Both the position numbers and the translations under genes were made by a program. A stretch of DNA of 64,000 bases from Conus ventricosus (Eukaryota; Mollusca; Gastropoda; Neogastropoda; Conidae), in assembly GCA_018398815.1 (NCBI GenBank), contig CM031622.1, positions 23,301,257 through 23,365,256 on the forward strand. Reading direction: 5' to 3'. The notes under the pieces were generated by a model that worked only from the letters and a program-made list of their open reading frames with translations, was not told the DNA's origin and did no database searches. Below, piece by piece: positions 1 to 64,000 of this stretch (position 1 is the first letter of the stretch; each line of letters begins with the position of its first letter).

Positions 1-1395
1 TAACCCTCGGACCCTTCACTAAAGGGCTTTGCCTGTCTTGGACCCCCCACCCCCCCTTGACCCCTTTCCCCGGGAGGGGCCCTTTTTGCCCCCGCACAAA
101 TTTTTGAAAAAACCATTTTCTCCGCTTGCCTATGCGTTTTACCCCGTTCAGTAAGTTGAAACAAACCGAAATGTATTCCCTGGCTTCGTTGCAGCCCACG
201 GCGGATGCAGTATAGACCTGGGAGATTTCCGATATTTCCAAGTTTCCGATAACCTCTGGACCTTTTTCACACCAGAGATTCGTTTGATCTCGCAGCTTTC
301 CGTAAGGAGTCTACCAGCTCCTCTGGCGTACAAGGCTTGTATGCCAAGCTCTGTTCCAAATTCCCATCCTATCAAAAAGTTTTCACTGACGGTTCCAAGT
401 CTGAGGATGGAGTGGCCTGTGCAGCCTACTGCCCTGGGCTCCTCTCAGATATTGTTGGAACATATACATTCAGATGCTTCTGTCTATTCTGCTGAACTTA
501 CTACTGCTCTAGTACTGCTTTGAAGATAATCTCCCATTCTTCGAGGAGGGACTTTCTGGTTCTGTCGGATTCGCTGTCGCTTTGGAGGCCATAGCTGGCC
601 GCAACCTTCAGCATCCAGAACTTTTACTTTTTTTTTGAACTTTTTAGCAAGTTGAAGCGGACGTTACAACATTACTCTTGCTTGGTTCCTGGCCATGGTT
701 GCATCGGCGGGAACGAAATGGTTGATCGTTTAGCCAAGAACGCCACAAGAGAGAAACTGTCCAACACTTATATCCCCTGCTCAGATGTGAAACCCAAAAT
801 TAACGATTATGTGAGAGACCCTCTGGCAGGAGGATTGGAACACACAGACGAATAACAAACTCTTTCAGATCCGTCCAAACCTTAAAGACTTCCTCCCATC
901 TACGTCGGGTGGTCGTAAAGAGGAAACGGTTCTGTGCCGGCTGCACACCGCCATTCGTATTTTACCCATTTTCTATTCTTTACCTTTTAAAGAGTGAAGA
1001 AGCTCCGTGGTGCATTCCATGTCATGCACCACTCACAATGAAACTTGTTCTTTAGAATGGTTGGGGGGGACTTGCACGATGTGAGACACAAACATTTACA
1101 GCGAGTCATGAAGAACCAGTTCAGGGAAGACCCGCCTGACGTGCTCCTTGGGTTATTTGAGGAGAAATTAACATATTTCATCTGATTTGAGATATTACGT
1201 AAAGAAGATTTTAAACAAAGTTTCTGTTCGTTTGTAGACGATGTCATTTAACGAATGTGTTGGAAAGGTATTTTTTTTTTTTTTTTTTTTTTTGCGGGGG
1301 TTGGGGGGGGGGACGGTGGAGGTGAATTAACTGGTGACAAGCCCTGATGTGGGCCCTCTGCGGTTGTCTGGGCTATAAGCAACATTATCTAATAT
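1..1395 (+). mobile_element. I/Nimb-like non-LTR retrotransposon, copy A (3' fragment)
   Basis: This is the 3' part of the non-LTR family that recurs five times in the window (A-E). It aligns by eye with the end of the reverse transcriptase, the RNase H domain and the 3' UTR of the full-length copy at 4013-10007. It ends with the family's 3' signature GGCTATAAGCAACATTATCT. The 5' end lies outside the window. The first 120 bases are C-rich and noisy but still follow the family. A C-terminal RNase H plus a TATCT-type tail points to the I/Nimb group; the clade is an inference from domain order. No intact frame remains. Confidence 0.8.
640..860 (+). pseudogene. RNase H domain remnant of copy A
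   Basis: One readable stretch contains VPGHGCIGGNEMVDRLAKNA, followed by a conserved tail with NDYVRD. The PGH, GNE and D-x-LAK pattern is the C-terminal part of the RNase H fold found at the end of ORF2 in I-group LINEs, where it degrades template RNA during reverse transcription. Upstream and downstream parts fall in other frames because of one-base indels. The same segment recurs near 2630-2780, 9320-9480, 42960-43130 and 45420-45620. Confidence 0.7.
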
Positions 1396-3343
1396 TTCCC
1401 GTAACTGGAAGCCTGTACCCGAGTGTCCACGCAGGCTCCAACTTTGCGTAGATAAAATCCATCGGTGGGGGCGGATGAAAACGGTTTTCAAACTTCTGCT
1501 TACAATGAAGCGAAAAAACCCAGTGTAATCACTTCCATAATTTCCGTCCAGTTTTTTTTCCAGATCCGGAACATCAAGCAGAAATCACCCATTCCAGCAG
1601 TTAAAGAGGGCCAAATTTCTGGGAGTCTTTTTTGACACAACACTTACTTTCTCAGTCAGCCATATTTAAAAAACCTCAAAACAGCTTTGCCAAAAGGCAC
1701 TGAAATATTCTGCGGTCGTAGCACACAGACTCGACTGGGGCGCTGATAGAAAATTTGTTTCACCTCACAGAGCCCTGGTCCGTTCCAAACTGGACTAAAA
1801 CGGTTTTGTGCTGTGTACGGCTCCGCAATATCATCTACCTCAAACTCTTGACCCTATCCACCATCAGGCTTCGCACTGTCTTGGAGCGTTCCGCCGCACA
1901 CTACCCCCCTGTGTACAGCCTGAACGCAGAGGCAGGTGAACCTTACACTGCCAACCGAAGGCTGGAAACTGTCTTTGATTATTACATCCGACTGTTCTCA
2001 GAACCGCAGAATCCTGCCTATGACTGTGTTTTGACCCCTCCGTTCCAAAGTAAGTTTGAAACAAACCCAAATTATTCCGCCCGTTTGGGCTTCTGTAAGC
2101 AGCCTCAACGTGCGGAGCAGGTATATACCTGGGAGTAGTTTTTTCCGATTTTTTTTTCCAAGTTTCCGATTAACCTCCATGGAGACCTATTCTTTCACAC
2201 CAGAGATTCGTTTTGATCTCGCAGCTTTCCCGAAAGGATTCCTAACCAGCTCTCTGCGAACAAGCTTTGTATGCCAAGCTCTGTTCCCAAATTCCCATCC
2301 TATCAAAAAGTTTTCACGACGGTTCCAAGTCTGAGATGGAGTGGCCTTGCAGCCTACTGCCACCTGGGGCTCCTTCTCAGATATTGTTGGAACATAGCAT
2401 CAGATGCTTCTTGTCTATTCAGCTGAACTTACTGCTCTAGTACTCAGGCTTTTGAAGATAATCTCCCTCCCATTCTTCGAGGAGGGACCTTCTGGGTTCT
2501 GTCGGATCCGCTGTCGGCTTGGAGCATATAGCTGGCCGCAACCTTCAGCATCCAGAACTTTTACTTTTTTTTGAACTTTTTAGCAAGTTTGAAGGCGGAC
2601 GGATTACAAAAACATTACTCTTGCTTTGGGTTCCTGGCACATGTTGGCATCGGCGGGAACGAAATGTTGATCGTTGTAGCCAGAACGCCACAAAGAGAAA
2701 CTGTCCAACACTTATATCCCCTGCTCAGAATGTGAAACCCAAAAATTAACTGATTATGTGAGAGACCTCTGCAGGAGGATTGAACACACAGACAATAACA
2801 AACTCTTTCAGAACCCGTCCAAACCTTAAAGAAGACTTCCTCCCATCTAACGTCGGGTGGTCGTAAGAAGGAAGAAACGGTTCTCTGTGGCCCGCGCACA
2901 CCCGCCATTCCGTATTTTAAACCCATTCTACCTTTAAAAGAGTGAAGAAGCTCACGTGGTGCATTCCAAGACATGCACCACTCACAATGGGAAAACATGT
3001 TCATAGAGTGTTGGGACTTGCCCGATGTGAGACCGAAACATTTTTACAGCGAGTCCATGAAGAACCAGTTCAGGGATGTCCCCGCCTGACGTGATCCTGG
3101 ATTTTGGGAAAATTTACATTTTTCATCTGGAATTGAGATTTAACTGAAGAAAGGATTTTTAACAAAGTTTCCTGTTCGTTTGTAGACATGGTCAATATAA
3201 CGAAGATGATGTGAAGTTGTTTTTTTTTTTTTTTTTTTTTTTAAATGACTTGGTGAGTTGATTTTAAACGTGGTGACAGCCCGTATGTGGCCCTCGGATC
3301 TGCGTCGGCTGGGCTATAAGCAGGACATTATCTTATCTTATCA
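1396..3343 (+). mobile_element. I/Nimb-like non-LTR retrotransposon, copy B (5'-truncated)
   Basis: Copy B begins abruptly just downstream of the reverse-transcriptase active-site region (ACTGGAAGCCTGTACCCGAG, compare 8143-8163). It runs through the RT thumb, RNase H and 3' UTR to a TTATCTTATCTTATC tail. Such 5' truncation is typical of target-primed reverse transcription. It follows copy A directly, so it either inserted in A's tail or the two form a tandem pair. Its 3' end abuts the left LTR of the gypsy-type element about 109 bases inside that LTR. All frames are broken. Confidence 0.75.
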
Positions 3344-4011
3344 TGTGGTGCGGTTTTGCTCCTTGGTGTAGTCAGCTCACGTTCGGTTTGCTTTCTCTCT
3401 CTCTCTACATCTCTAATTCCACAGCCCGTGCTAATTCATCCGCAGGTTCACGGGTGGCCTGGGACCTTCTCTCGAACCGTGCTGTCTAACGGCCTCTCGA
3501 CTGTTCGTTTAACCTGTCCACGTGCTTCATTCTTTTAGTTTGAAAGTATGCACCAACTCTTGTGACTAGCGTGGCATTTGGCCCGCCATCCGCTGAAGGA
3601 GGAGGTTTAGCTCTTCACTCGAGCGGAAGATGTCTCTGTCTCTGGGAGCGCCGCCTCCGGTCTTGGTTCTTCAACCGTATCGTCGAAGTCAGTCGGGGTA
3701 TCATCTCAATTCCTACAGTCGGCCTGGTACGGAGAAGGAAGGGGATACATCACTTCTTCTTTTCCGCATCTGGCTCTGTCCTCTCGACTGGACAGAGGGC
3801 AGAGAGAGGTCGTTTGAACAACCCGCTTCTTCGGGGTCCAAAAACCCACGGGTAGACGGTAAGCATCAGTTTCTGGTTTTGTTTGTTTTGGTTTGTTGTT
3901 GGTTAGCCGCTTAATCTTCTCTTTTGCGCAATTTTCTGTTTGTTTGCCAAAATTGTAAAAGAAATATTGTTTGAGTACCTTTTCTCTGTTAATTCAATCT
4001 TTAAACCTGGC

Positions 4012-4173
4012 CCTCCGGGGGGGTTGCGACCTTGTCGTGTCGGAGGGTTTGCGTGGTCCAGTGATCTCCCTTAGGATTTGCTGCGGGGGCATCAATACTT
4101 GCGATAGGGCTGTTTTTTTCACACGGCGTCTAGGCCTGAGAAGTCAAGATGCGTGTGTTGGCCTAAGCGAAAC
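4012..4173 (+). ncRNA. Candidate HDV-like self-cleaving ribozyme at 5' end of copy C
   Basis: A nested double-pseudoknot layout can be drawn. P1 is CCTCCG (4012-4017) with CGGAGG (4041-4046). P2 is GTTGCG (4023-4028) with the segment after CTAAG (CGAAAC here, CGTAAC in copy E). P3 is a short ACC/GGT helix around a loop of about 7 bases, with one G missing in this copy. CTAAG at 4163-4167 would be the J4/2 strand holding the catalytic C. HDV-like ribozymes are known at 5' ends of several non-LTR retrotransposons, where they free the element RNA from upstream transcript. The P4 arm of more than 100 bases is not resolved, so this is a candidate only. Confidence 0.4.
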
Positions 4174-4979
4174 GGGTAAGGAGTTTTATCCCCTTGTAGG
4201 GCTTCCCATTCACTAGCTAAGGGTGAGGATCCTGACTAAGAGTAACCCACCTTTCTCCTTGTGTCTGGTGGGCTGCCTCCCTTATTTGGCCCTTTACTAT
4301 CTTCGTCTCCCATCAGTCCTTCTTTCCCACACCTTTACTCCTCTGTGGTCTACCTCAGAACCCCCGAAAGCCGAGCGGATGCGACCTGTACGAGAGGGAA
4401 TGAGATCCTGGTGATTGAGAGGCCAGCGCCTCTCACACATCACTTTGGCTCGGAACCTCACCTAGACCGGGAGTACACTTGTCCCGGGTGGACTAATCGG
4501 CTCCCCTTCTTGGGGCTGGGGTCAAGACGACAGTTCCCCTACTGGCCAAGTTAACCCTGCAGTGGCTCAGCTCTCTGTCCCCGGGAGTCAGCATGATCAG
4601 GGGGATAGTTGGTAGTTTCTGTTTGTCGCATATCTCTCCCCGAAGCCTGGAAGGGGTCTAGACAATGGTTTCTTCTAGCCCTTTGGGCCCCTTTTTGGAC
4701 TCCAAGGTGGGTGGGTAAGGGAGAGATGACATAAAATACAATACATCATGGCTTTTTCAAAAACAATCCCCCCAAAAAAGAGAATCTGCATCCCCTATTT
4801 CAGGGAATTTTGATTTCAGATAGAGATTCCGATATGGAGGTTCGACAGAGGACAGGACTGGGCTTCCTGCTCGTGATGGAAGGGACGGAGCAAGGAAGAC
4901 CCCTTTCAGCTCTGAGCCCTTTTGCCATACAAAGGCTTTTCAAGCTTTAGCAGGTGACCCTCGGTCCAACAAGAGGGTT

Positions 4980-9520: not shown

Positions 9521-10289
9521 CTCCCAACTACTCGGGTGGTCGTAAAGAGGAAACGGTTTCAGTGCCGGCTGCACACCGGCCCCCATTTCGAATTTACCCC
9601 ATTCTTACCTTTTAAAGATTGAAGAAGATTCCGTGGTGCATTCCATTCATGCACCACTCACAAGGAAACATTTTCTTTAGAGTGTTGGGACTTGCACGAT
9701 GTAGACACAAACATTTTACACGATTCCATGAAGATCCTGTTCAGGGATGTCCCGCCTGATGTGATCCTTGGGTTTTTGAGAGAAATTAACAATTTTTCCT
9801 CTGATTGAGATTTTATACGGAAGAAGGATTTTTAACAAAGGGTCCGGTAGGCGTGTAGTACGATGTCATTTAACGATATGTGTTAAAGTTTATTTTTTTT
9901 TTTTTTTTTAATTGACTGGTGAGTGATTTTAACGAGGTGACAGCCCTGATGTGGCCGCCCTCTGCGTCGCCTGGCTATAAGCAACTATTATCTTCTCTTA
10001 TCTTGATACTTTAACCTGGCCATCCAAAATTATACCCAAAATTCTTTCCCCCTTTTATGCATCTCGTGATGCGGTCAATCGTGGGGATGGGAGAGAACCT
10101 GGTGATTCAGGGTCGGTACTTGCTTAGGTCTCGCTCTTTCCGCGCCCTGTCACATTCACCGACGCTTATCATCTTCGAGCCACCGTCTGTTTGTGTGTGC
10201 AAGAGAACGATTTTATGTTGCGAGCGTGCTACGCATGATTTGTCGTTCGAATGCGTGGTTGGAGATTGTGATTAATTTTTGAAATGGGC

Positions 10290-20632: not shown

Positions 20633-21085
20633 TCACCTTAGGGACTGTGTCTGCTGGCCGAACCGAATATTCTGGTAGGATTGTTTCGGTTTCGGCCTAG
20701 AGGGGATATTAGGGCGCTTGGCGGGCAGTGCCTTAAGCGCCGGGGGGCGAGAGGACCGTGCCAGCACGGCAACTCTAGCTACCAACAGGCAGTAGTGGCT
20801 CCTGGCTGCGCTGTCCGCCGCAGCTGAAAGGTGATGCGAGATCCTGTTGACCAGGTGTCGCATAAATGGGTCGCTGAACAAGAGAGAGTCCGTCTCCTGG
20901 TGTGTCTCGGAGCCAGGGTCCGATGACAGTGGGACGGCGCCGTCCTCCTCCGGCTTGCGCACCCCTGGTGCGAGTTGCCGGACCTTCCCAGATGGAGGTG
21001 AGGGACTGTGGGGCGATGATCCTGGGTTTAGATCGCTGGGCAGGGGGCGGCTCAGTGATGTCAGTGAAAGAAAGGACATTGTCAC
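20633..21085 (-). pseudogene. Gag-like fragment of the DIRS-like element
   Basis: An open minus-strand frame of 150 codons ends upstream exactly where the short hAT element begins, so the original frame was probably longer and was cut by that insertion. It is Pro/Ser-rich at the start, then has SLLFSDPFMRHLVNRISHHL and an Ala/Arg-rich stretch, then a basic Pro/Lys-rich end. This layout resembles DIRS Gag-like proteins, but I do not recognise a firm domain. It could also be an unrelated fragment. Confidence 0.35.
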
Positions 21086-21910
21086 AGACCTGCCTACCCT
21101 TTCCGTAATCGTCCGTAATTTTACGGAAATTAACCCCCCATTACGGAGGTACGATTTTCCGTGCGAAATTACGGAAAAGAAAAATTGAAAAACTACGCAA
21201 GTTTCAGACTCGAAAAATTGTCGACTGCTAGACCTTTCCGAGACCGCAGAGTAACTTCCCTTGACTCAAGCCGAAACCACAGATGGTTCGGAACTTGCGA
21301 TTGGTCAGTGTGGTGCTGTGGGCCAACACGACACGCCATCACATCTGTGCGCGCCATTCGAAGCTTTTTGTTCAGCCATTGTAAGACAAAGTTTCAACCG
21401 ATTTTTTTGCGGCGATTGTGAAAATGGCGGAGAAATCTTCTAAACGTTTGCATGAAACCGATGACGAGGGTTCGAAAACCACTGTGCCACAACGGAAGAA
21501 GGCGAAGAAGCAAGTGTTCCGAAGTAAATACACGCGGACTTGGCCTTGTCATGGACCTGGATTTGTATACTCATTTCTGCTCGGTGTGCAATTCAGACTT
21601 CTCCATCGGACATGGGGGAGCAAATGACTGCAAGCGCCATATCTCGGGGAAAATGCAAAAAAGAGACAGCTGCGAGTGCCTCCAGTCAGAAGATCACATC
21701 GTTGTTTACGAAATCCAGCGAGCAGCCGTCAGACCCACACACGGAAGATCACCAACGCAGAAAGACTGTTGTGTGAGCTGATCTGCGAAAACAACTTGTC
21801 CCTGAGCTGTGCTGACAAGATAGTGGCGAAAATGAAAAGGTCCTTTTCATTTTCGCCACTATCTTGTCAGCACAGCTCAGGGACACACACACACACATTT
21901 TTTTTTTTTT

Positions 21911-21942
<32 letters not shown>

Positions 21943-22328
21943 GTACATTAGGTTCTTCATCAGTGGTGTCATCTGTGGTGACTGCTGTGTAAGTTACAAA
22001 CTGTCAAGTATATCACCTTTGAATTGACCTGAAACTCCTGTCCTGAGTCCGTCATCTGCCAACAACCCAAGGTATTTTAATTCTGCTATGTTGTTTTTGT
22101 CCTTTTATTTACTGGTTATATTTTTTGCGTTAAAATGATAAAAATGTGAGTTGATTTTGTACGACATAATAGTTCAATGTTAAAAGTGAATTGGAGTTCT
22201 TTTTACACAATATTTGTTCAAACACGCCGTGTATTAACGACGTCCGTAGGGAATAACTAAGGAAATGCAAAATTACTGAAAATAACAAGTGTTATTACTG
22301 ATGAGCACAACAAGTAGCATGGACTCTG
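21085..22328 (+). mobile_element. Short hAT derivative, copy 1
   Basis: It starts CAGACCTGCCTACCC and ends in a degraded copy of the inverse (CATGGACTCTG). Flanks TTGTCA and ATGTCA give a 6-base target duplication with one mismatch. It is nearly identical to copy 2 at 54685-55915. It encodes only the N-terminal part of a transposase: a basic stretch, then a BED-type zinc finger (FCSVCNSDFSIGHGG, then C-x2-H-x5-H), then TNAERLLCELICENNLSLS. After that it folds back on itself and ends in repeats. It lacks the catalytic region and must depend on a transposase supplied elsewhere. Confidence 0.82.
21799..21883. repeat. Perfect 42-base palindrome in hAT copy 1
   Basis: Arms 21799-21840 and 21842-21883 are exact reverse complements around a single T. 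The left arm is transposase coding sequence (ADKIVAKMKR). The right arm is followed by a CA repeat, a T run and a G run. Confidence 0.9.
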
Positions 22329-33429: not shown

Positions 33430-33600
33430 CCCTACGGGGGGTTGGGACCGTGTCGTGGTCGGAGGGTTTTGCGTGGGTTCCTGTGATCCCTTAGGCTTTG
33501 CTGGCGGGGGGCATCATTACTTGGACGATAGGGCTGTTTTATTCACACTAGCTTCTAGGCCTGAGAGGTGCAGATGCTGTTTGGCCTAGCGTAAGTGTAA
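33430..33600 (+). ncRNA. Candidate HDV-like ribozyme at 5' end of copy D
   Basis: P1 is CCTACG (33431-33436) against CGGAGG (33460-33465), with one mismatch. P3 is ACC/GGT (33447-33458) around the loop. P2 is GTTGGG (33441-33446), altered relative to GTTGCG. The J4/2-P2' segment reads CCTAGCGTAAG (33585-33595) and seems to lack one A compared with copy E. It is the weakest of the three copies but has the same layout. Confidence 0.3.
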
Positions 33601-34439
33601 GGAGGTTGGAGTTGACTGCCCTCCCGGTTGGGGACTTCCCATGGCAGATAGGCTAAGGGTGAGATCCTGACTAAGAGTAACCGCCTTTCTACTTTTCTTG
33701 TTTTTCTGCCTCCCTTATTTGGCCCTTGTTCTATCTTCCGTCTCCCCTTCAAGTTCTTCTTTTCCACACTCCTTTTCCTGCTGTGGTATCCTTAAGATCC
33801 GCCGCGTTTGCCGTGCGGTGCGTCTGTGTCGGAGGGGGTATGAGATCCTGGTGATTGAGAGGCCAGCGCTCTCAACACATCACTTTGGCTCGGACCTCTC
33901 CTAGACGGGAGTACACTTTGGCCCGGGTGTACTAATCGGTCCCCTTCTTGGGGTATGGGTCAAGACGGGCAGTTCCCAGCTGGCCAATTAAACCCCTGCA
34001 GTGCTTCAGCTCTTTGTTCCCGGGAGATGCAGCATGATCAGGGGGAGGTGATAGGGTTGTTGCTTTGCTTGTCGTATGGTCTCTCCAGAAAGCCGGAAGG
34101 GGTCAAGACATTGGTGTCTTGGCCTGGCCCCTTAGTTGGTCTCAAATGGGGGGGGGGGGTGGGTGGGTAAGGGAGGATGATTACAATTAAAGTAAAATAT
34201 GACTTCTTCGAAAAAAACTACCCCCCCAAAAGAAGAGGAAGGACAGTATCCCCTATTTCAGGGGGGATTTTGAAACTGACAGTTGATCTGACGTGAGGTA
34301 AGACAGAAGACAGGTTTCGGGGCTTCCTGGCTCGTGGTGGAAGGGACAGAGCAGAAAGACACCCTTTTTCAGCTCTGAGCCCTTTTGCTGTCCAAAAGGG
34401 CTTTCATGGTATAGCAGGTGAACCTAGGTCCATAAAAAG

Positions 34440-35609: not shown

Positions 35610-37184
35610 TCTTGGACAATTACAAAATATCCTTGGAATATCCGTGGTCTAAAATCCAATCTTTTTCGATGGCAGCTGCAGCTTCTGTGTCATCTATGAA
35701 TCCTTCTGCTGGCTCTTCAAGAAACCCAAATTCAAGCCAGAAGACCCTTTCACTCTTTCTGGCTTTAATATTTTTCAAAACCTGCCCCAACCTCCCCCCA
35801 CCATTCCACGTTGGGATGTCGGGCGGTGTTGCCCTTCTCCTTCATCAAAACTTTGTTGTATGTCCTGTCGATCTGTCTACCATCCTTCTGGGCTGTAGTG
35901 CGAGAGTCACTCTCCACAAGACTGTCACCATCTGTGCTTGTTTCTACCGCAAATCTAGTCCCGGTTTGTCGTCAGGATCCTTGTCAGTCTGTTAGGGGGA
36001 AACTTCCTCCGACCTTTTTTGCTGTTGTGGTGACTGTAAACGTGTCACAACCCTCTTTGGGTGTAGTACCGGTTCGTCATCCAGAGGTCTGCTGATTGAG
36101 GATGTCCTTTCGGATTTGGATTTGTGTTGTCTGAACGAGGATCTGCAACTTACCTCCATTCTTCCACAGGTTCCTTTTCATGTTTAGATTTGTCGGTTTT
36201 GTGACCCCTCGCTGGTCCTGGACGATGAGTGGTCTGTCCATGACGATTCTGCACGGAGAGGTGGCATTTCCCTGTCCTTCTACAACCTGTAATACTGAAC
36301 ACGTCTCTGTCTCTCAGCTTTAAATTATAAGAAAGGCAAAAATGGGATCTCTTTTGCAGCCACTGTTTCTAAGGAGTTCCAGGACACTGATTTTTTTCAG
36401 AGTCCTGACCCAGCTGAATCACTGTCTAACACTATGATTTTAATGTGCTTAAGCCTGTATTCCAGTGTCTTCCACGATATAAACTTTCACATGCCAAAAA
36501 CACCGGTTTCGATTCAGATGCCAACAAATTTCCAAAGTTAGAAAAACGGCTCAGCGTCAGGTTATACCAACGGCCTTCGGGTTCCCAACGCTCGAGCCCA
36601 TCAGAAAACTCCGTGCTAAATCAAAGACACACTTTTAAAAAAATCAGTAAAGTCGGTCCTGGGAGTAAGCTTCTGCCTCCAGGCTGACATCAAATAACTT
36701 CCAAGGGAGATAAAAGTGTGGAACTCTTTAAGAAAATCAAAGGGGGAAAGAACACCTGTCCCCACTGTGAAACCATTCTCAAGTTTTCGATCTTTAATAA
36801 CAGAGAAGAAAGCAGTTGCTTCTTATTGCTTGCTGCAAACCATTGAAAAAAAGAATTCTTTGCTTCTTCTATTGAAATCCGTACTTTTGTCAAAAAACAA
36901 AGCCCTTAAAGAAAATCACCCTGCAACTATAATCCGAACTACCAACTACATGAAGACTACCAATCTTCCTTTCACATATAAACGAGCTGAAATCTGGGCC
37001 ATACTCTCTTGCAGCGATTCCTCTCCAGGTATAGGATGACATTCATTATTCAAAACTATTGGAAAACATCTTCCGCTAAAAGTTAGGTCTGAACATCCTG
37101 TTACAGGTATACAACCAGTGTGGGGACTACAGGTTTGTTTCCACCCTCTTGGCCGGGCAGGAAAGCCCTCATTATTTCCCATCC
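35610..37184 (+). pseudogene. ORF2 5' half of copy D (endonuclease to early RT)
   Basis: The endonuclease domain starts near TGGAATATCCGTGG (35634-35647). SCLDLSVCDP-like and DDLHG-like stretches are collinear with copy C, and a VALL/FIKTLLYV stretch lies near 35820-35870. The sequence continues to the RT fingers and stops at ATTTCCCATCCCC, where copy E begins. Frames are broken. Confidence 0.6.
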
Positions 37185-37350
37185 CCTCCTGGGGGTTTGC
37201 GACCTTGTCGTGGGTGGAGGGTTTGCGTGAGGGTCCAGTGATCCCTTAGGCTTTGCTGGGGGGGGCATAATACTTGGAGATAGGCTGTTTTTTTCACACT
37301 GCTTCTAGGCTGAGAGGTGCAGATGCAGTGCTGTTTGGCCTAAGCGTAAC
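37185..37350 (+). ncRNA. Candidate HDV-like ribozyme at 5' end of copy E
   Basis: P1 is CCTCC (37185-37189) with GGAGG (37216-37220). P2 is TTTGCG (37196-37201) against CGTAAC (37345-37350), with one extra T in this copy. P3 is ACC/GGT with a loop around TTGTCGT. CTAAG (37340-37344) sits directly before P2', as J4/2 does in HDV-like folds. It is the best-preserved P2' of the three. P4 is long, with a possible GCAT/ATGC pairing. Confidence 0.42.
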
Positions 37351-37413
37351 GACGGTAAGGTGTTGCGGATGCCCCTGGTAGGGCTTCCCATGTCAGATGG
37401 CCTAAGGGTGAGG

Positions 37414-37645
37414 GATGCCAGGGGGGGGGGGCGGGAAGGAGGGGGGGGAGGGAGGGAGGGGGGGGGGGGGGGAGGGGGTGGGTGGGAGGAAGGGGGAGGC
37501 AGGGGGGGGGAGGAGGGGGGGGGGAGGGGATGGGGGGAGGGGGGAGGGGGGGGGGGGGGGATGGGAGGGGGGGGGGGGGGGATGGGGAGGGGGGCGGGGG
37601 GGGGGGGAGGGGGTGAAGGAGGGGAGGGGAGGAAGGGATGAGTGG
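37414..37645. repeat. G-rich low-complexity tract inside copy E 5' UTR
   Basis: About 230 bases of G with scattered A/T lie exactly between CTAAGGGTGAGG and ATCCTGACTAAGAG, which are adjacent in copies C and D. Gly-rich frames here are not genes. It is either a real expansion or a sequencing/assembly artefact. Confidence 0.85.
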
Positions 37646-38449
37646 CGGCGGGGGGATCCTGACTAAGAGTAACCCGGCCTTTCTCCTTTTTCTTGTTTTT
37701 GCCTCCCTTATTTGGCCCTTTTCTATCTTCGTCTCACCTTTAAGTCTTCTTTTCCACCACTCCTTTTCTCTCTGTGGTCTCCTTAAGATCCCGCCGCGTT
37801 TGCCGTGCGGTGCGTCCGAACCCTGTGTCGGAGGGGAATGAGATCCTGGTGATTGAGAGGGCCAGCGCTCTCAAACACATCATTTGGCTCGGACTCTCCT
37901 ATGCAGGGAGACACTTTGGCCCGGGTTACTATTCGGGCTCCCCCTTCTTGGGGGGTTGGTCAAGACGGGCAGTTCCCCAGCGGCCAAGTAACCCGTGCAC
38001 GTGCTAGCTCTCGCGTTCCGGGAGTTGGAGCATGATCAGGGGGGATTGGGTGGTTGCTGTTTGCTTGTCGTTAGTCTCTCCCGAAGCCTGGAAGGGCGGT
38101 CAAGACATTGGTTTCTTGGCCCTGGCCCCTTGTTGGGGACTCAAGGTGGGTGGGTAAGGGGTGCTATGAATCACCAATAAATAAATATGACTTCATTTAA
38201 AAAAAACTAACCCCCCCCCCAAAAGGAAGAGGAAGGCCGTATCCCCTATTTCAGGGATTTGAAAAAGACAGTGATTCTGTCTGTGAGGTAAAGACAGAGG
38301 ACAGGGTTTCTGGGCTTCCTGGCTCGTGGTGGAAAGGGACAGAGCAGGAAAGGACCCCTTTCAGCTCTGAGCCTTTTGCTGGCCAAAAGGCTTTCATGGG
38401 TATAGCAGGGTAACTAGGTCCATAAAACGCGGTTGAGGAAATGGTTCGT

Positions 38450-39420
38450 TTTCTTCTTTCAATGTTCGATCACAGAAGCATCCGACAGTTGCAGAAGGCC
38501 AAAAAACAAAAAAGCTGTGGTTTAGGGAGATCAGGGTGGTGACTCCCATAAGCAATTAAATTCATCCAAAGGTGTGATTAGATGCAGAGATCTGGCAGGT
38601 GTTTCAGCGGCGGAAATAAAACGGAGCTGGCGGTCCCAGGGTGTGTGGAGTTGCGCAGGGTGACGGTGAAAGAAGGGTTCAGAGAGAGTGGCCACCAACT
38701 CCCTCTTTCTGACCTTCTGCAACCCTGGCTGCCTCCGGTCATCAAGGTTGGGTTCCTAAATGTTCATGTTCAGCTCTATGTGCCGTCCCCGTGAGGTGCT
38801 TCAGGTTGCCAGAAGTTTGGCCATGTCAGGGACCGCTGTTCAGGGCAAAGAGGTATGCGGTGGTTTGCTGCAAGGCAACCCATGAGAGGGCCGTGTCAAG
38901 ATCGCACATTGTGCTAACTGCGTTGGCGACCATCCCTCCTCTTCAAGAAACTGTCCTCTATGGATTCAGGAATCCGCAATTCAAAGACTAAAGACTGAAA
39001 AGGAAAATTTCTTTTTGAGGCCGCAGCAGGTTGTGGGCAGTCAGACGCGACAGCCTCTTCCTATGCTTCGGCTGTAGGAAAGTTCCCACAAGTTTCCACA
39101 TCGATCCAGTCTCCGCTGTCAGACTGATGACTTTACGTTTTGAAGACACTGCAAGTACGAACTGTCAACTCTGGTGGAAGCAGGTCACCACCTCTCAACC
39201 CAAAATGATTGCCCCCCTGGTGAGGCCAAAAAAAATCCGCCACCCCTCAGACTGCCCAGCAGTCTACAACATCTGTGCTGGGCAGATTAAAAAAAACGCA
39301 GTTCCCCCTCGAACTCCTCTGTCCAGTGCCCGTGCGGGCAAGGGAGTTCCACCCAGTGTGGTGATGGTGGTGGATAAGGAATAACCCTCACCATTCAAAT
39401 TCCAGACTCTCACCTTCTCC
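38450..39420 (+). pseudogene. ORF1 remnant of copy E
   Basis: It is collinear with ORF1 of copies C and D. CPEVWPCQGPLF-like and CANCVGDHPSSS-like fragments (about 38810-38945) show the zinc-knuckle region, and a Ser/Pro-rich C-terminal region follows to about 39380. Several one-base indels break the frame. Confidence 0.55.
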
Positions 39421-39576
39421 AAAACTCCCGGCCTTTGTCACCTGCGGGCAAGTCTGCCCAGCAGGTCCAAAGACCAACACAGTCAGTGAAACTACAAAAT
39501 AAAATTCACTCCATTGGCGGCAGATGTCTGATGAGGAGGATGACCTGAATCTTCTCTCTTTTCGCCCTCTGCACCA

Positions 39577-42500
39577 TGGATAGTACAATATTACATTGGA
39601 ATATCAGTGGATTAGAATTCCCAACTTTGTGGAGCCTGCAGCTTCTGTGTCAGTTATAAAACCCTCCGTCGTGGCTCTGCAGGAAACTCAAATTCAAAGC
39701 CAAGAAGACCTTACTCTTTCTGGCTTTATTATTCATTCAATACCTGACACAAACCATCCATGTGGGGACTGTCGGGCGGGGTTGCCCTTCTCCTACACAA
39801 AACTTTGCTGTATAGTCCTGTTCGATCTGTCTACCTCCTTCAGGCTGTTAGCTGCGAGAGTTCACCTCTCCACAAGTCTGGGACTCATCTGTTCTCTTTA
39901 TCTACCTCCTTCTGTCCCGGTTTGTCGGTCAGGACCTTGTCAGTCTGATAGGTGGAACTTCCTCGACCTTTTTTGTGGTTGGGTGACTTTAACGGTACAA
40001 TCTCTTTGGGGTTGTGCGGTACGTCACCCAGAGGTCTGCTGAATTGAGGTTGTCCTGTCAGACTTCGGATTGTGTTGCTCCCCTGAACGACGGATCTGCA
40101 CTTACCTCACTCTTCCACAGGTTCATTTCGTGTTTTGATTTGTCGGTTTGGGACCCCTCGCTTGGGCTGGACTATGAGTGGTCTGTCCTTGACGATCTGC
40201 ACGGAAGTGACATTTCCTGTCCTTCTACAACCTGTATTAAACTGATACGTCTCTGTCTCTCACATCTAGTTATAAAAAAGCAAACTGGGGATCTATCTTT
40301 GCAGCCCTATTTCAAAAAGGAATTCCAGGACACTGATTTTTTTTCAGAGTCCAGACCCAGCAGATCTTGACTAACACTCATGATCAAAAATGTGCTAAAG
40401 CCTGTATCAGTGCTTCTTCCGATAAACTTCAAATGCCCATAACACCCCGGGTTCGATTCAGACTGGCCAACAATTTTCCAAAGTTAGAAAAGGGCTCAGC
40501 GTCAGTATACTCGTACCAATCGGACCTCCCCTTGTTTTTTTATTGTCTGCGGTCCCAACGCTTCGAGCCATCCAGAAATCCGGGCTCTAAATCGAGACAC
40601 CACTTTTAAAATCAGTAAACGTCGGTCTGGGAGTAGCTCCCCTGCCTCCAGGCTGACATCAAAAACTTCTAAGAAAAAAGTGAGGGAACTCATTAGAAAA
40701 TCAAAGGGAAGAACACTGTCCACTGTGAACCATCTCATTTGTTCGGATTCTTTAATAAACTGAGAAGAAAGCAGTTCGCTAATCTGCTTGCTTCAACCTG
40801 AAAAGAATTCCTCCTCTTCTAAGCAAATCGGCCGACTTTTGTCAAAAAACAATGCCCTAAAGAAAAACACCCTGCCCACTTTTCATCCGACAAATGGAAG
40901 CTACAATCTTCCTTTCACATTAAACGAGCTGAAATCTGCCTCTACTCTCTTGCAGCCGAGTCCTCTCCAGGTATAGATGACATACATTATAAGATTGAAA
41001 ACATCTTCCGCAAGAAGGTCTGAAAATCATCCCTGTTACACCGGTATACAACCACGTGTGGACTACGGTTGCGTTCCACCCTCTTGGCGGAACCAGCCCT
41101 CTTTATTCCCATCCCCAAACTGGAAAAGATACTTTCTAATCATCGGAAATACCGTCCCATAGCCTTTGACCAGCTGTCTGTCGGTAAATTGATGGAAAAA
41201 AAACATGGTCAATGCTGGCTCATGGTGGAAAACTCGAAACCGATGGCCTTTTGGCCGAAAAGAACAGTGTGGTTTCCGCAAAAATCGTCGTACAGTTGAC
41301 CATTTTGATTGTCTGGAAATCTACACTTAGGAACGCTTTTTTAAACTGACAGCATGCAGTGGCAATTTTCTTTGACTTGGAGAGGCCTACGATACCTCTG
41401 GAAGTCGGGGATATTTCATGATCTCACGATCTGGGTTTTCGAGGTCATCTTCCGCTTTTTATTCAAAATTTTTTTGGCAGAACGGACAGTTTCAGGTCGG
41501 GTTGGCACACTCTCTCTGATGTCCACGTGCAGGAGTGGGGTGTTCTCAGGGGAGATACTTATCTCTGCCCTCTTTAGTATTAAGATCAACAACATTGTTC
41601 AATCAGTTCAGCAGGTTCAGACTGCTCATTGTTTGTGGATGATTTGCTGTCCTACGCAAACTGGAAGCCTGTACCCGAGAGCACGTGGTCCAGCGCAGGC
41701 TTTCAGCTTTGCGTAGATAAATCCATCGGTGGGCGGATATGGGGAAAAAGGTTTCACCTTTTCTGCTACAAAAACCAGTGGTTTTCACTTCCATAATTTC
41801 CGTCAGTTTTTTCCAGATCCGGGAAACTTCAAGTTAGGGAAATCTCCCATTCCAGCTGTTTAAAGAGGCCAAATTTCTGGGAGTTCATTTTTGACCAAAA
41901 CTTAACTTTCTCAGCCATATTCAGAACCTCAAAACTGCTTGCCAAAGGCACTGAATATTCTGCGGGGTCGTAGCACAAAACGACTGGGGCGCTGATAAGA
42001 AAACTTTGTTGCCACCTCTACAGGCCCTGGCCGCTTCCTAACATCTCGACTACGGTTGTGTGTGTTCGGCTCCGCAAGATCATCTTACCTCAAACTTTGG
42101 ACCCTATCCACCATTCAAGGGCTTGTCGCTGTCTTGGAGCGTTCCCGCACCACCCCTGTGTACAAGCCTGTACGCAGAGGCAGGGTGAACCTTCACTGTC
42201 CAAACCGCCAGGCTGTAAAATGTCTTTGAATTATTCTTCCGACTGTTTCTCTCAGGAAACCGCAGAATCCTGCATATGACTGTGTTTTTGACCTCCGTTC
42301 CAAAGTAAGTTTGAAAACAAACCGAAAGTATTCGCCGTTTGGGCTTCGGAAAGCAGCCTCACGTGCGGATTGCAGGTATAGACCTGGGAGTAGTTTCCGT
42401 TTTTTCCAAGTTTCCGGATCAACCCCATGGACCTTTTTCAACACCAGAGATTCGTTTGATCTCGCAGCTTTCCGTAAGGCCGTCTACCAGCTTCTCTGGC

Positions 42501-43300
42501 GTACCAAGGCTTTGTATGCCGAAGCCTGTTCCAAATTCCATCCTATCAAAAAAGGTTTTCCACTGGACGGTTCAAGTCTGAGGTGGAAGTGGCTGTGCAG
42601 CCTACTGCCCTGGCGGCTCCTTTCAGATATTGTGGTCTCCCCCCCACATATAACCAACCCCCCCCCTCTGATGCTTCTGTCTATTAGCTGAAACTTACTG
42701 CTCTAGTACTGGCTTTGAAGATAATCTTCCCATTCTTCGAGGAGGGACTTTCTGGTTCTGTCGGATGGCTGTCAGGCTTTGGATGCCATAGCTGGCCGCA
42801 ACCTTCAGCATCCAGAACTTTATACTTTTTATTGAACTTTTTAGCAAGTTGTGGCGGCCCCCCCCCCCCCCACCGCCCCCCGCCTCCCCCCCCCCCCCCC
42901 CCTCCCCCCACACCCATCCCCCCACCCCCATCCCACCCCCCCTCACCCCCTCTTGCTAGCGGTCCTGGCCCATGTTGCATCGGCGGGACGAAATGGATTT
43001 GATCGTTTAGGCCAAGAACGCCCACGAAGAGAGAAAACTGTCCACACTTATATCCCTTGCTCAGAAATTTGTGAAACCCAAAATTAACGATTATGTGAGA
43101 GACTCTGGCAGGGGATTTTTGGACCACTCAGACGAATAACAAACTCTTTCGATCCGCCAAACCTTAAAGACTTCCTCCCATCTACGTCGGGTGGTCGTAA
43201 AGAGGGAACGGTTCTTTGCCGCTGCACACCGGCCATTCGTATTTTACCATTCTTACTTTTAAAGAGGGAAGAAGCTCGTGGCCCCCCCCCTGCATCCATG
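39577..43300 (+). pseudogene. ORF2 remnant of copy E (endonuclease-RT-RNase H)
   Basis: LHWNISGL (about 39590-39613) opens the endonuclease. VVALQETQIQSQ (about 39670-39706) contains the catalytic Glu region. Later parts include YEWSVLDDLHGSD (about 40173-40210). RT contains FSIKINNIVQS (about 41573-41605) and, in another frame, LFVDDLLSY (about 41631-41657). The RNase H segment is interrupted by a C-rich tract at 42852-42955 and resumes near GTCCTGGCCCATG. Domain order is complete; the frame is not. Confidence 0.7.
42852..42955. repeat. C-rich low-complexity tract in RNase H of copy E
   Basis: About 100 bases, mostly C, replace the short AGGCGGACGGTTACAAC segment present in the other copies. 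Smaller C runs occur at 42639-42664 and 43281-43289, also only in E. Confidence 0.85.
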
Positions 43301-43549
43301 TCATGCACCACTCCAATGAAACATGTTCTTTTAGAGTGTTGGGACTCTGTGCAGATGTGGAGACACAAACATTTTACAGCGGGAGTCCTTGCAGGTCCTG
43401 TTCAGGAATGTCCCGCCATGACGTGATCCTTGATTTTGAGAGAAAATTAACATTTTTCATCTGATTTGAGATTGTACGGAAGAGGATTTTTAAAAAGTTT
43501 ATGGTTCGTTTGTAGACGATGTTCATTTAACGAGATGTGTGAAAAGTTG

Positions 43550-43583
<34 letters not shown>

Positions 43584-43675
43584 TTGACTGGTGAGTTGAT
43601 TTTAACGTTGGTGACAGCCCTGATGTGGCCGCTGCGGTCGGTGGGCTATAAAGCAACATTATCTTATCTTATCTT

Positions 43676-45731
43676 ATTCCCATCCCCAAACTGGAAAAAG
43701 ATCTTCTAAATCCATTAACTACCCGTCCCATAGCTTTGACAGCTGTGTCTGTAAATGATGGAAAAAACATGTGTCATGCCTAGGCTTCATGTGGAAAACT
43801 CGATACGATGGCCTTTTGGCGAAAGACAGTGTGGTTTCCGCAACATCGTAGTCAGTTGACCATTTGATCCGTCTGGCTCGTAACTCTACGGAACCGCTTT
43901 TTTAAACAGGACCCGCTTTGCAGACTGGCAATTTTTCTTGACTTGGAGAAGGCCTATGATACCACCTCGGACAGTCGGGGATACTTCATGCTCTCCACGA
44001 TCTGGGGTTTTCGAGGTCAATCTTCGCTTTGTATTCAAAATTTTTTGGCAGAACGACTGTATCGGTCCGGGTTAGGCACCACTTCTCTGATGTCACGAGC
44101 AGGAGTTGGGTGTTCCACCAGGGGAGCATACTATTCCCTGCCCTCTTTAGTATTAAGATCAACAACATTGTTCATTCAGTTCAGCAGGGTTCAGGAATGC
44201 CTCATTGTTGTGGATGGATTTTGCTGTCTACGCACTGGAAGCCTGTACCCGAGTGTCCAGGCAGGTCCAGCTTTGGTAGATAAAATCCATCGGAGGGCGG
44301 ATTGATGAGAAAACGGTTTCCCTTTTTCTGCTACAAAAACCCAGTGTTATTCACTTCCATAATTTCCGTCAGTTTTTTCCGATCCGGAACTTCAAGTAGG
44401 GGAATCTCCCATTCCAGCGGTTAAAGAGGCCAAATTTCTGCGGAGTCAATTTTTGACCAAAACTTAACTTTCTCAGCCATATTAAAAACCTCAAAACTCT
44501 GCTTGCCAAAAGGCACAGATGAATTCATTCTGTGGGTCGTAGCACACACCGACGGGGCGCTGATAAGAAACTTTGTTGCACTCTAACAGAGCCCTGGTCC
44601 GTTCCAAACTGGACGACGGTTGTGCTTGTACGGCTCCGCCAAGATCATTCTTACTCAAAACTCTTGCGACCCTACCCACCATCAAGGGCTTCGTTCTCTG
44701 TCTTGGAGCGTTCCGCACACCCTGTGTACACGCCGGTACGCAGAGGCAGGTGAACCTTCACTGTCCAACCGCCAGGCTGAAACTGTCTTTGATTATTTAC
44801 ATCCGAATGTTCTCAGAACCGCAGAATCCTGCCTATGACTGTGTTTTTGACCTCCGTTCAAAGTAAGTTTGAAACAAACCCGAACTGTATTCCGCCGTTT
44901 GGGCTTCGTATGCCGCCTCACGTGCGGCATGCAGGCTATAGACTGGGAGATAGTTTCCGAATTTTTCAAGTTTCCGGATACAACCTCCAGGAACTTTTTC
45001 ACACCAGAGATTCGTTTTGATCTCGCAGCTTTCGGTAAGGAGTCTACCAGCTCTCTGGGAGTAACCAAGGCTTTGGTTATGCGAGCCTCTGTTCCAAATT
45101 CCCATCCTATCAAAAAGTTTTCACTGACGGTTCCAGTCTGAGGATTGGAGTGGCCTGTGCAGCCTACTGCCCTGGGGCTCCTTCTTCAGATATTGTTGGG
45201 AACATATCAATTTCCGATGCTTCTGTCTATTCTGCTGACTTACTGCTTAGTACTGGCTTTGAAGATAATCTCACATTCTTCAAAGAGGGATTTCTGGTTC
45301 TGTCGGATTCGCTGTCAGCTTTGGACAGCCCATCGCTGCCGCAACCTTCAGCATCCAGAACTTTTGCATTTCTTTGAACTTTTTAGCAAGGGGGGAAAAG
45401 CGGGACGGTTACCAACATTATCTTGCTTGGGTTCCTGGTTCATCGTGGCATGGCAGGGAACGAAATGGGTGATCGTGTTTTAGCCAAGGAAGCCATCAAG
45501 AGAGAAAATGTCCAAATTTATATCCCCTGTTCAGATGTGAACCCAAAAATTAACGATTATGTGAGAGACCTCTGGCAGGAGGATTGGAACACACAGACGA
45601 GTAACAAACTCTTTCAGATCCGTCCAAACCTTAAGGACTTCCTCCCATCCACGTCGGGGGTCGTAAAGAGGAAACGGTTCTGTGCCGGCTGCACACCAGC
45701 CATTCGTATTTTACCCATGCTTACCTTTTAA
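43676..45731 (+). pseudogene. ORF2 3' half of copy D (RT to RNase H)
   Basis: Copy D's RT resumes with a KLEKDLLNPLTTRPIALT-like stretch and the FSIKINNIVHSVQQ block (about 44143-44186). The active-site box is damaged (TTGTTGTGGATGGATTTTGC, 44203-44222). RNase H is clear in an open frame at 45423-45731: GMAGNEMGDRVLAKEAIKRE, then NDYVRDLW, then RKRFCAGCTPAIRIL. The last part, with C-A-G-C-x-P, is a cysteine-bearing tail seen in the other copies. The stop at 45729 ends the open frame. Confidence 0.65.
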
Positions 45732-46118: not shown

Positions 46119-46541
46119 TTGTGAAAAAGATTGAATACGGTCATAGTAGTACTATATAGTAATATCAAAATATCATCAACTGGTTACCTCAAAAAACGGA
46201 TTGCTCAAAACAATTATTTAGTCCCCTAAATTTCGAGGTAACCGATTTCCACTGTATATATATATGGGAAGAAAAGAAAAAAAGACAATATTTTGACTTC
46301 ATGCAGAAAGACACTTTAGCCTGTCAAAGACATATGTAGAGGACATTATTTTTACCTTAGAATGCAGGAAAAGCGTCAGCGGCCGGGCTCCGCCCCGGAC
46401 CCCGCTGGGGAGCTTACAGCGCTCCCCTAGACCCCCTAGACTGTTGGGGGCTTCGGCCCTGCGGGCCTCGCATTTGCTACTACTTTTCATACCCCTGCTA
46501 CTATTTTTGGCTATCTCAGCTACTCCAAGACTCTTTGGGGG
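46119..46541 (+). other. 3' subterminal part of the hAT element
   Basis: After the copy D tail, the hAT sequence resumes. It holds a GGTTACCTC...GAGGTAACC hairpin (about 46181-46250), then a GC-rich block with several fold-backs (46371-46480, for example CCGGGCTCCGCCCCGG), then TACTATTTTTGGC before the terminal repeat. No coding sequence was recognised. Confidence 0.55.
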
Positions 46542-46554
46542 GTAAACAGGTCTG

Positions 46555-48345
46555 AGTCTTGAACGATAGGTTGATAAAGGTGTGACTGTCCAGTCTTGAA
46601 TGATAGGTTGATAAAGCTGTGACTGTCCGGTCTTGAACGATAGGTTGATAAAGCTGTGACTGTCCGGTCTTGAACGATAGGTTAATAAAGCTGTGACTGT
46701 CCGGTCTTGAACGATAGGTTGATAAAAGTGTGACTGTCCAGTCTTGAACGATAGGTTGATAAAGGTGTGACTGTCCAGTCTTGAATGATAGGTTGATAAA
46801 GCTGTGACTGTCCAGTCAGGAACGAAAGGTTGATAAAGCTGTGACTGTCCGGTCTTGAACGATAGGTTGATAAAGCTGTGACCTTCCGGTCTTGAACGAT
46901 AGGTTGATAAAGTGTGACTGTCCAGTCAGGAACGATAGGTTGATAAAGCTGTGACTGTCCGGTCTTAGCGATAGGTTGATAAAGCTGTGACTGTCCAGTC
47001 TTAACGATAGGTTGATAAAGGTGTGACTGTTCTGTCATGAACGATAGGTTGATAAAGGTGTGACTGTTCTGTCATGAACGATAGGTTGATAAAGGTGTGA
47101 CTGTCCTGTCTTGAACGATAGGTTGATAAAGCTGTGACTGTCCGGTCTTGAACGATAGGTTGATAAAAGTGTGACTGTCCAGTCTTGAACGATAGGTTGA
47201 TAAAGGTGTGACTGTCCAGTCTTGAATGATAGGTTGATAAAGCTGTGACTGTCCAGTCAGGAACGAAAGGTTGATAAAGCTGTGACTGTCCGGTCTTGAA
47301 CGATAGGTTGATAAAGCTGTGACCTTCCGGTCTTGAACGATAGGTTGATAAAGGTGTGACTGTCCAGTCAGGAACGATAGGTTGATAAAGCTGTGACTGT
47401 CCGGTCTTAGCGATAGGTTGATAAAGCTGTGACTGTCCAGTCTTAACGATAGGTTGATAAAGGTGTGACTGTTCTGTCATGAACGATAGGTTGATAAAGG
47501 TGTGACTGTTCTGTCATGAACGATAGGTTGATAAAGGTGTGACTGTCCTGTCTTGAACGATAGGTTGATAAAGCTGTGACTGTCCGGTCTTGAACGATAG
47601 GTTGATAAAGCTGTGACTGTCCGGTCTTGAATGATAGGACTGTCTGGTCTTGAACGATAGGTTGATAAAGGTGTGACTGTCCGGTCTTGAACGATAGGAC
47701 TGTCTGGTCTTGAATGATTGGTTGATACTCTGACACTTGATAAAGGTGTTACTGTCCAGTATAATTAGGATGATAGGTTGATACAGGTGTTACTGTCCAG
47801 TATAATTAGGACGATAGGTTGATAAAGGTGTGACTGTCCAGTATAATCGGGACGATAGGTTGATACAGGTGTTACTGTCCAGTATAATTGGGACGATAGG
47901 TTGATGAAGGTGTTGATACAGGTGTTACTGTCCAGTATAATTGGGACGATAGGTTGATAAGATAAAAGTGTGACTGTCCAGTATAATTAGGACGATAAGT
48001 TGATAAAAGTGTGACTGTCCAGTATAATTGGGACGATAGGTTGATAAAGGTGTTACTGTCCAGTATAATTCGGACAATAAGTTGATAAAGGTGGGACTGT
48101 CCAGTCAGGAACGATAGGCTGATAACACGTGTGACTGACCAGTCTAGTTGAGAATATATGTTGATGAAGGTGTGACTGACCAGTCTAATTGGGACGATAG
48201 GTTGATAAGAGTGTGACTGCCCCGTCTGAGACGACAGGTTGATAAAGGTGTGACCGTCTAGTCTGAGATGATAGGTTAATACAGGTGTTACTGTCCAGTC
48301 TGGGATGATAGGTTGATGTAAATGTCTGGGATGATAGCTTGAGAT
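46555..48345. repeat. 37-bp minisatellite, right block with higher-order repeat
   Basis: About 48 units carry GATAGGTTGATAAAG and TGTGACTGTCC. Two consecutive 12-unit blocks (about 46720-47160 and 47161-47600) repeat the same series of variants with an offset of 441-442 bases. After about 47750 the units switch to a TATAATTGGGACGATAG variant. The minus strand is open for long stretches because three 37-base units make 37 codons. I regard these frames as non-coding. Confidence 0.92.
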
Positions 48346-62946: not shown

Positions 62947-63194
62947 GTAAGCATTTCATTTTTCATCCTCTTTTTCTGGGCAGGCACACTTCCTTGTGCA
63001 CGCACAGTAAGCATGATTGTGATAGTGTCCCTTGTCAAGTAAAGACCTATTTGATAGTAGCAGTAGGGACAGCCTTGCTAACCATAAGTTTCCTGTGGAT
63101 GCCGTTACTGAAATCATCTCTCTAGTTTGTCTGTGTGTCATCTAACCACCATCGTGCAGCGGAGGTGCTCCCAGAAACATGTGCAAGGTTACAT
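62947..63194. other. Start of next intron
   Basis: Unique-looking sequence. No further exon was found before the minisatellite. The PWWP exon must lie downstream of the window. Confidence 0.6.
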
Positions 63195-64000
63195 GACCCC
63201 ATTTGATGTTTCACTGAAACGTCTGACTCCACTTGATGTTTCACTGAACTGTCCGACTCCACTTTGTGCTTCACTGAACTGTTTGACTCCATGTTATGCT
63301 TCACTGAACTGTTTGACTCCACGTTATGCTTCACTGAACTGCTTGACTCCACGTTATGTTTCACTGAACTGCTTGACTCCACGTTATGTTTCACTGAACT
63401 GTTTGACTCCACGTTATGCTTCACTGAACTGTTTGACTCCACGTTATGCTTCACTGAACTGTCTGACTACACTTGATGTTTCACTGAATTGTCTGACTCC
63501 ACGTTATGTTTCACTGAACTGTCTGACTCCAATTTTTGTTTCACTGAACCGTCTGACTCCACATTATGTTTCACTGAACCGTCTGATTTCACTTTGTTTC
63601 ACTGAACCGTCTGATTCCACTTCATGTTTCACTGAACCATCTGACTCCACTTTTTGTTTCACTGAACCGTCTGACTCCACATTATGTTTCACTGAACCGT
63701 CTGATTTCACTTTGTTTCACTGAACAATCTGACTCCACTTCAAGTTTCACTGAACCATCTGACTCCACTTTATGTTTCACTGAACAGTCTAACTCCACTT
63801 TATGTTTCACTGAACTGTCTGACTCCACTTTATGTTTCACTGAACAGTCTGACTCCACTTTATGTTTCACTGAACTGTCTGACTCAGCATTATGTTTCAC
63901 TGAACCGTCTGACTCGCTTTATGTTTCACTGAACAACTGACTCCACTTTATGTTTCACTGAACTGTCTGACTCCACTGTATGTTTCACTGAACTGTCCAA
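63195..64000. repeat. 30-bp minisatellite, continuing past the window
   Basis: About 27 units carry GTTTCACTGAACTGTCTGAC and CCACTTTATG. Because 30 is a multiple of three, both strands stay open for long stretches. These give repeated VSLNCLTP-type or SVKHNVES-type peptides that I do not regard as proteins. Units drift in sequence along the array, and some have lost a few bases. Confidence 0.93.

Follow-up and report, generated by a model that had tools for sequence, protein, structure and literature searches.

Three copies of a LINE in a 64,000-nt stretch of Conus ventricosus DNA (the window, meaning here this whole stretch) raise the question of whether the element begins with a self-cleaving RNA and, if so, of which strand closes its fold. 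The initial annotation of the window placed a possible HDV-like ribozyme at the exact 5' end of these copies, designated C, D and E (copies elsewhere in the genome are named by locus, L0xx). This proposal is partly supported, but the 3' strand of the ribozyme is probably not the one originally put forward. Two candidate strands, each composed of J4/2 followed by P2', must be distinguished: the upstream strand, CTAAG-CGTAAC, is that of the initial annotation and occupies consensus positions 150–160, and the downstream strand, CTAAG-A-GTAACCC, occupies positions 227–239. In the reading we consider probable, the first ~242 nt of the LINE encode an HDV-like self-cleaving ribozyme that uses the downstream strand, with the C at 4236 as the candidate catalytic residue.

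The material for comparison came from the parent genome (3.52 Gb in 12740 contigs). When the first 301 bases of copy C served as the query of a DNA search, 2000 first-look candidates were obtained, and all 40 of those scored matched; copy E as the query returned 1656 candidates, again with 40/40 of the scored ones matching. From the 39 matches besides copy C itself, a young set of 27 copies (L002–L028) was assembled. A further set of 24 units was obtained from 23 of 39 upstream stretches, fetched at places found by a DNA search with a relative, L041, which gave at least 40 places. These comprise 16 of 20 stretches and 7 of 19, with L070 giving two units; left out were L063, in which only the last 46 nt matched, and 15 stretches without a match. 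All 12 places compared from the L041 search belong to the same LINE family, at 94–98% over the main segment. Because the further units are 90.9–99.2% identical to the young sequence, some of them are also young. An apparently divergent copy at L029:1224 (74%) was excluded as evolutionary evidence, being a homopolymer smear that looks like a noisy gap fill.

The predicted cleavage falls just before the first base of P1. Copy C extends from 4011 to ~10008, copy D from 33430 to ~46118 and copy E, which is nested in copy D, from 37184 to ~43675; each is flanked by an approximate target duplication, whose 3' members are as follows.

10009 to 10019, + strand: target duplication 3' of copy C, CTTTAACCTGG, compared with CTTTAAACCTGG before 4011
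43676 to 43684, + strand: target duplication 3' of copy E, inside copy D; short, about 9–14 nt
46119 to 46131, + strand: target duplication 3' of copy D, TTGTGAAAAAGAT, compared with TTGTGAGAAAAAGAT before 33430

In the young copies the 5' flanks are unrelated to one another and the start is sharp at CCC in 27/27. The base preceding CCTCCG is C in all 27; one base further 5' the copies differ, as they do still further upstream. The element therefore starts with CCCTCCG, and P1 has 7 bp. Thus P1 does lie at the element boundary, as had been claimed, and the helix CCTCCG/CGGAGG does pair there, but it carries one more C at its 5' side, and the true start of copy C is one base before the 4012 originally given. 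The starts are 4011 in C, 33430 in D and 37184 in E, and read CCCTCCG in the young copies and CCCTACG in D. In C, E and L037 the target also continues with C, which leaves the assignment of the first C or Cs ambiguous. The boundary is unambiguous in L070 on contig C14, a copy inside another copy, where the duplication AGTAACCCGCCT and then CCCTCCG stand at the left and TTCTCC follows the 3' end. Ten fetched starts were checked for target duplications. At L033 the tail is immediately followed by an exact duplication of 12 nt; at L037 an exact repeat of 22 nt exists but stands ~120 nt past the tail motif; microsatellites surround L036 and L038; and an 8-nt repeat at L032 was taken as chance. No target duplication was found at five of the ten starts, several of these stretches ending before a 3' end.

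The two head-to-tail ribozyme units of L070 were considered as tandem 5' monomers and rejected in favor of an ordinary nested insertion, because the inner 3' end is followed by AGTAACCCGCCT and then by the remaining outer 5' UTR. Such self-nesting occurs both in the window, where copy E (37184–43684) sits in copy D, and in L070, which lies 243 nt into another copy. Two more fragments, matching the 3' region of this LINE (137–1396 and 1403–3345; span 137–3345), lie upstream of copy C, and copy E is interrupted by low-complexity G-rich and C-rich stretches (37414–37653 and ~42850–42950) that look like assembly or read noise and not like part of the LINE.

The proposed ribozyme, aligned to the genome copies, comprises the following features in copy C, with the counterparts in D and E given last.

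4011 to 4248, + strand: whole proposed ribozyme of copy C (consensus 1–239)
4011 to 4017, + strand: P1 5' strand CCCTCCG; cleavage is predicted immediately 5' of 4011, where the duplication ends
4021 to 4027, + strand: P2 5' strand GGGTTGC (TTGC and the last bases of a variable G run), predicted to pair with GTAACCC
4029 to 4040, + strand: P3 ACC, L3 TTGTCGT and P3' GT, with one G missing in copy C
4041 to 4047, + strand: P1' CGGAGGG; P1 pairs 7/7 in 21/24 further units
4048 to 4235, + strand: P1.1 partner, J1.1/4 and a large predicted P4 domain (consensus 38–226), with a long-range helix GGGGCATCAA/TTGATGCCCC whose 3' arm is decayed in copy C
4163 to 4173, + strand: upstream strand, J4/2 CTAAG plus P2' (CGAAAC in copy C), now placed inside P4 and possibly a competing strand
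4236 to 4241, + strand: preferred J4/2 CTAAGA with the candidate catalytic C at 4236; this C, with the two A positions that follow it, is unchanged in 24/24 further units
4242 to 4248, + strand: preferred P2' GTAACCC; GTAACC is intact in 24/24 further units, as it is in copies C, D and E
33430 to 33682, + strand: ribozyme of copy D, CCCTACG ... CTAAGAGTAACC, with a P1 mismatch, G rather than T as the first L3 base and a broken upstream strand
37184 to 37675, + strand: ribozyme of copy E, with a ~240-nt G-rich insert at 37414–37653 and the downstream strand CTAAGAGTAACCC at 37663–37675

In the young sequence the order is CCCTCCG - G run - TTGCG - ACC - TTGTCGT - GGT - CGGAGGG. P1 (CCCTCCG/CGGAGGG, 7 bp) stands directly at the predicted cleavage site and P1' directly follows P3'; this core, with its 3-bp P3 and 7-nt L3, is exact in 25/27 young copies. 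Copies C, D and E do share the arrangement of P1, P2, P3, L3 and P1' that the initial annotation described, each with small defects as it also stated. P3 is intact in all 24 further units. In the HDV-like fold, a trans G-U pair is placed at positions 1 and 6 of L3; in the further units the first L3 base is U in 24/24 and the sixth is G in 22/24. Such a U-G pair in L3 is described for HDV-like ribozymes (PMC3774820, PMC3386971). The two units in which this G has become A may be inactive, because a change of the same kind in the R2 ribozyme of Nasonia left no detectable cleavage (PMC3774820). P1.1 would comprise one pair at best, between the L3 G and base 38, which is C in 12/24 and U in 12/24 (either can pair); at its second position the consensus has U-U.

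On the strand that closes the pseudoknot, the original proposal needs revision. The downstream strand, located at 4236–4248 in C, 33671–33682 in D and 37663–37675 in E, lies ~77 nt 3' of the upstream strand and beyond the range that the initial annotation covered. That annotation had CTAAG directly before P2' in all three copies; this is the case in E, which alone carries CTAAGCGTAAC, but C reads CTAAG-CGAAAC and D reads CTAG-CGTAAG. The upstream P2 likewise stood in part: CGTAAC pairs fully with GTTGCG in the young consensus, but 7/24 further units break one or more of these six pairs, three of them through CGAAAC. The sequence CTAAGCGTAAC of the upstream strand is kept in 18/24 units, its P2' being changed in the other 6. 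The CGAAAC change, U157A, is common to L062, L072 and L089, and appears to mark a subfamily whose members have transposed; three other changes in this strand (G156A), situated within a CpG, may be plain decay. In the downstream P2, GTAACCC pairs with GGGTTGC after one extra A, and the six core pairs are intact in 22/24 further units as aligned; L062 misses only through gap placement in a shortened C run, and L066 fails in both models. The C and A positions cannot choose between the strands, because they are kept in 24/24 units in each (C227/A229/A230 and C150/A152/A153). An argument from the near-duplication of CTAAG-GTAAC was likewise set aside, since a near-duplicate 11-mer occurs in 66/300 shuffles and the duplication by itself means little.

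The P4 domain provides a second comparison of the two models. The long-range helix GGGGCATCAA/TTGATGCCCC has at least 9 bp in 24/24 further units and 10 bp in 21/24; a perfect helix of at least 10 bp with a loop of at least 60 arose in 26/2000 shuffles. This helix cannot simply coexist with the upstream P2'. In the downstream model P4 comprises ~185 nt, for which RNAalifold (18 rows) gives -54.3 versus -44.7 (sd 4.5) for 100 column shuffles; as a single sequence the z score is only -1.1. The ~110-nt P4 of the upstream model folds worse than shuffles (z +2.1), with an RNAalifold value of -17.9 versus -20.7 (sd 3.5). Over 249 nt, crude additive energies come to -92.6 (downstream model), -92.1 (plain nested fold) and -69.4 (upstream model); over 165 nt the upstream model has -47.2 versus -55.5 for the plain fold. 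At the P2/P3 junction of the downstream model, a G and an A are opposed and unpaired. No two-sided changes that keep pairing were found in P1, P2 or P4; of the 63 predicted P4 pairs, 38 are invariant in 18 rows and 25 vary, several of them breaking; covariation gave nothing either way because every readable copy belongs to one young family. Shared variable columns among 17 rows number 6/88 in positions 1–88, 13/81 in 89–169 and 2/73 in 170–242, and further 3' they number 5/68 in 243–310 and 2/60 in 311–370. As variable columns are also few beyond 242, conservation alone cannot mark the end of the ribozyme.

The foremost alternative is that the ribozyme is real and uses the upstream strand, with CTAAG at 150, P2' CGUAAC at 155–160 and a ~110-nt P4, the downstream CTAAG being incidental or a later competitor. 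This strand forms six uninterrupted P2 pairs adjoining P3 in the young consensus, keeps its C and A positions in 24/24 further units, would emerge first in transcription and has the geometry for which the strict pattern search described below found no chance matches. Against it stand the changed P2' and broken pairs among the further units, including the U157A shared by three of them, the loss of this P2' in copies C and D, the P4 that folds worse than its shuffles, and the 9–10 bp long-range helix, which the upstream model needs to be absent or present as a further pseudoknot. We therefore regard use of the upstream strand as unlikely and, from these models and counts, prefer the downstream strand, to a moderate degree.

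Whether there is a ribozyme at all was addressed by chance tests and model searches. The strict descriptor demands P1, J1/2, P2, P3, the U and G of L3 (a rule set after the sequence had been seen) and C-N-A-A-R followed directly by P2'; this is the upstream-strand geometry, and the descriptor covers that strand only, the downstream strand having one extra A. It matches the young consensus via the upstream strand and has 0 matches in 1.28 Mb of dinucleotide-shuffled window sequence; there are 4 matches in shuffles when the L3 rule is dropped and 90 when one P1 mismatch is allowed as well. The strict descriptor has no match in the window, copies C, D and E failing because each has defects. With L3 and J4/2 left free, 3/2000 shuffles of the consensus show the P1/P3 module right at the 5' end. 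A looser scan for the 5' module over both strands of 158,577 bases of fetched loci gave 37 matches, of which 35 belong to the same LINE family and 2 lie in one viral contig. Of the searches that the initial annotation had suggested, the descriptor matches the young consensus, but an Rfam search, HDV-like models included, gave no match at the 5' ends of the LINE copies or with a young copy alone. Rfam HDV-like models can miss divergent members. Elsewhere in the window there is one weak match to drz-agam-2-2 (38207–38266, minus strand, 17.7 bits, E 2.8).

These results also bear on a second alternative, according to which the RNA is not a ribozyme: the conserved 5' end would serve as a promoter or structured leader, its HDV-like pattern amounting to a G/C-rich hairpin plus features present by chance. 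The absence of both covariation (18 rows) and an Rfam match (LINE 5' ends), the plain nested fold with its equal energy and the frequency of near-duplicate 11-mers in shuffles are all consistent with such an explanation. The combination is rare at an exact 5' end, however, as the module and descriptor counts indicate, and the U and G of L3 and the C-N-A-A before P2' are kept; we hold this alternative to be improbable, more so than use of the upstream strand. Least probable, and doubtful on present models, is that a single P1/P3/L3 core can use either of two catalytic strands, CTAAG-CGTAAC at 150 or CTAAG-AGTAACC at 227, the first cutting early in transcription and the intervening domain later handing P2 to the second, as a timed switch between processing of the LINE RNA and its translation or packaging.

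The sequence itself, a sharp element boundary, flanking target duplications and conserved strands are what is shown; from these we infer a fold, a catalytic activity and a role for the ribozyme with the downstream strand. The RNA would form a nested double pseudoknot in which P1 (CCCUCCG/CGGAGGG) is followed by a short G-rich J1/2, by P2 (GGUUGC paired with the downstream GUAACC), by P3 (ACC/GGU) with its 7-nt L3, by a weak P1.1 formed from the L3 G and the base after P1', by the ~185-nt P4 and by J4/2 (CUAAG/CUAAC) with the catalytic C at 4236. RNA polymerase entering the LINE from outside would produce a longer read-through transcript; the ribozyme would cut this RNA just before CCCUCCG, yielding an element RNA with an exact first base; and reverse transcription reaching that base would cause each new LINE copy to start there.

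One copy, L038, has open frames for an ORF1 of 368 aa and an ORF2 of 1246 aa, the latter with Exo_endo_phos, RVT_1 and RNase_H domains. LINEs of the I superfamily (Nimb or Ingi group) have an ORF2 with endonuclease, reverse transcriptase and RNase H, and the domain set of this one copy fits that superfamily. In a survey of gastropod LINEs, Nimbus and Ingi are both placed within the I superfamily (PMC11203168). Of 2578 relatives, the 120 listed are 47–75% identical and indicate that related LINE families exist; those nearest among the named ones come from Nymphon striatum and Plakobranchus ocellatus and bear the name 'jockey'. Viral contigs yielded no relative by protein, and their four pattern matches are all unrelated. 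Five loci in bacterial genome contigs, presumably contaminants, encode relatives; none has an HDV-like Rfam match, and L041, a LINE in a Solemya symbiont assembly, is the only one with sequence 5' of ORF1, starting within the 5' UTR. A 68-nt block situated further 3' in the 5' UTR (L041:56–123 versus L038:609–674) is 73.5% alike in the two (E 2.2e-5) and is possibly a second conserved RNA element.

The predicted fold resembles the R2 ribozymes of animals, which also lie at a LINE 5' end and for which a P1 of 6–7 bp, a P2 of at least 5 bp, a highly variable P4, a J1/4 of 0–2 nt and few fixed nucleotides besides the catalytic C are described (PMC3774820). R2 resides in 28S genes and its ribozyme often cleaves inside rRNA (PMC3774820), whereas here cleavage is predicted at the first base of the LINE, with unrelated flanks; the endonuclease, reverse transcriptase and RNase H domains of ORF2 also set this LINE apart from R2. 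The R4, L1 and RTE ribozymes are reported to cleave at the 5' junction (PMC3774820), and the same role in 5'-end processing is described for Drosophila R2 (PMC3774820) and L1Tc (PMC4035085). A parallel in element type is L1Tc/ingi of trypanosomatids, a LINE with endonuclease, reverse transcriptase and RNase H whose 5'-terminal HDV-like ribozyme (Pr77) cleaves just upstream of itself, the downstream RNA being proposed to switch fold (PMC4035085). That ribozyme is contained in a 77-nt element (PMC4035085), whereas the one predicted here comprises ~242 nt with a very large P4. The mosquito ribozyme drz-Agam-2-1 likewise combines an HDV-like core with a large added domain, but its extra domain is in J1/2 (PMC4908430), which here has 2–3 nt, the bulk lying in P4. 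In the open literature, a scope outside which most subscription papers fall so that absence is unproven, no report was found of a ribozyme in a Nimb/Nimbus LINE, and none of the papers listed names, in its title or opening abstract lines, an HDV-like one in such a mollusc or gastropod LINE; the word ribozyme is absent from the main text of the gastropod survey (PMC11203168).

If the RNA cleaves as predicted, this would explain how a LINE of which many copies have full 5' ends keeps an exact start with no promoter at its first base, and would add an apparent animal I-superfamily LINE to R2, R4, L1, RTE and L1Tc/ingi as carriers of HDV-like ribozymes; its ~185-nt P4 would test how far the HDV fold stretches. 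The window carries other repeats as well. A 1.2-kb repeat is present at 21085–22309 and 54685–55896 with 94% identity between the two, and an ORF within it (55017–55631) encodes zinc-finger-like cysteines, with no Pfam match at 0.001. Two minisatellites are also present, one of 37-bp units at 46451–47781 and one of 30-bp units at 63117–63975.
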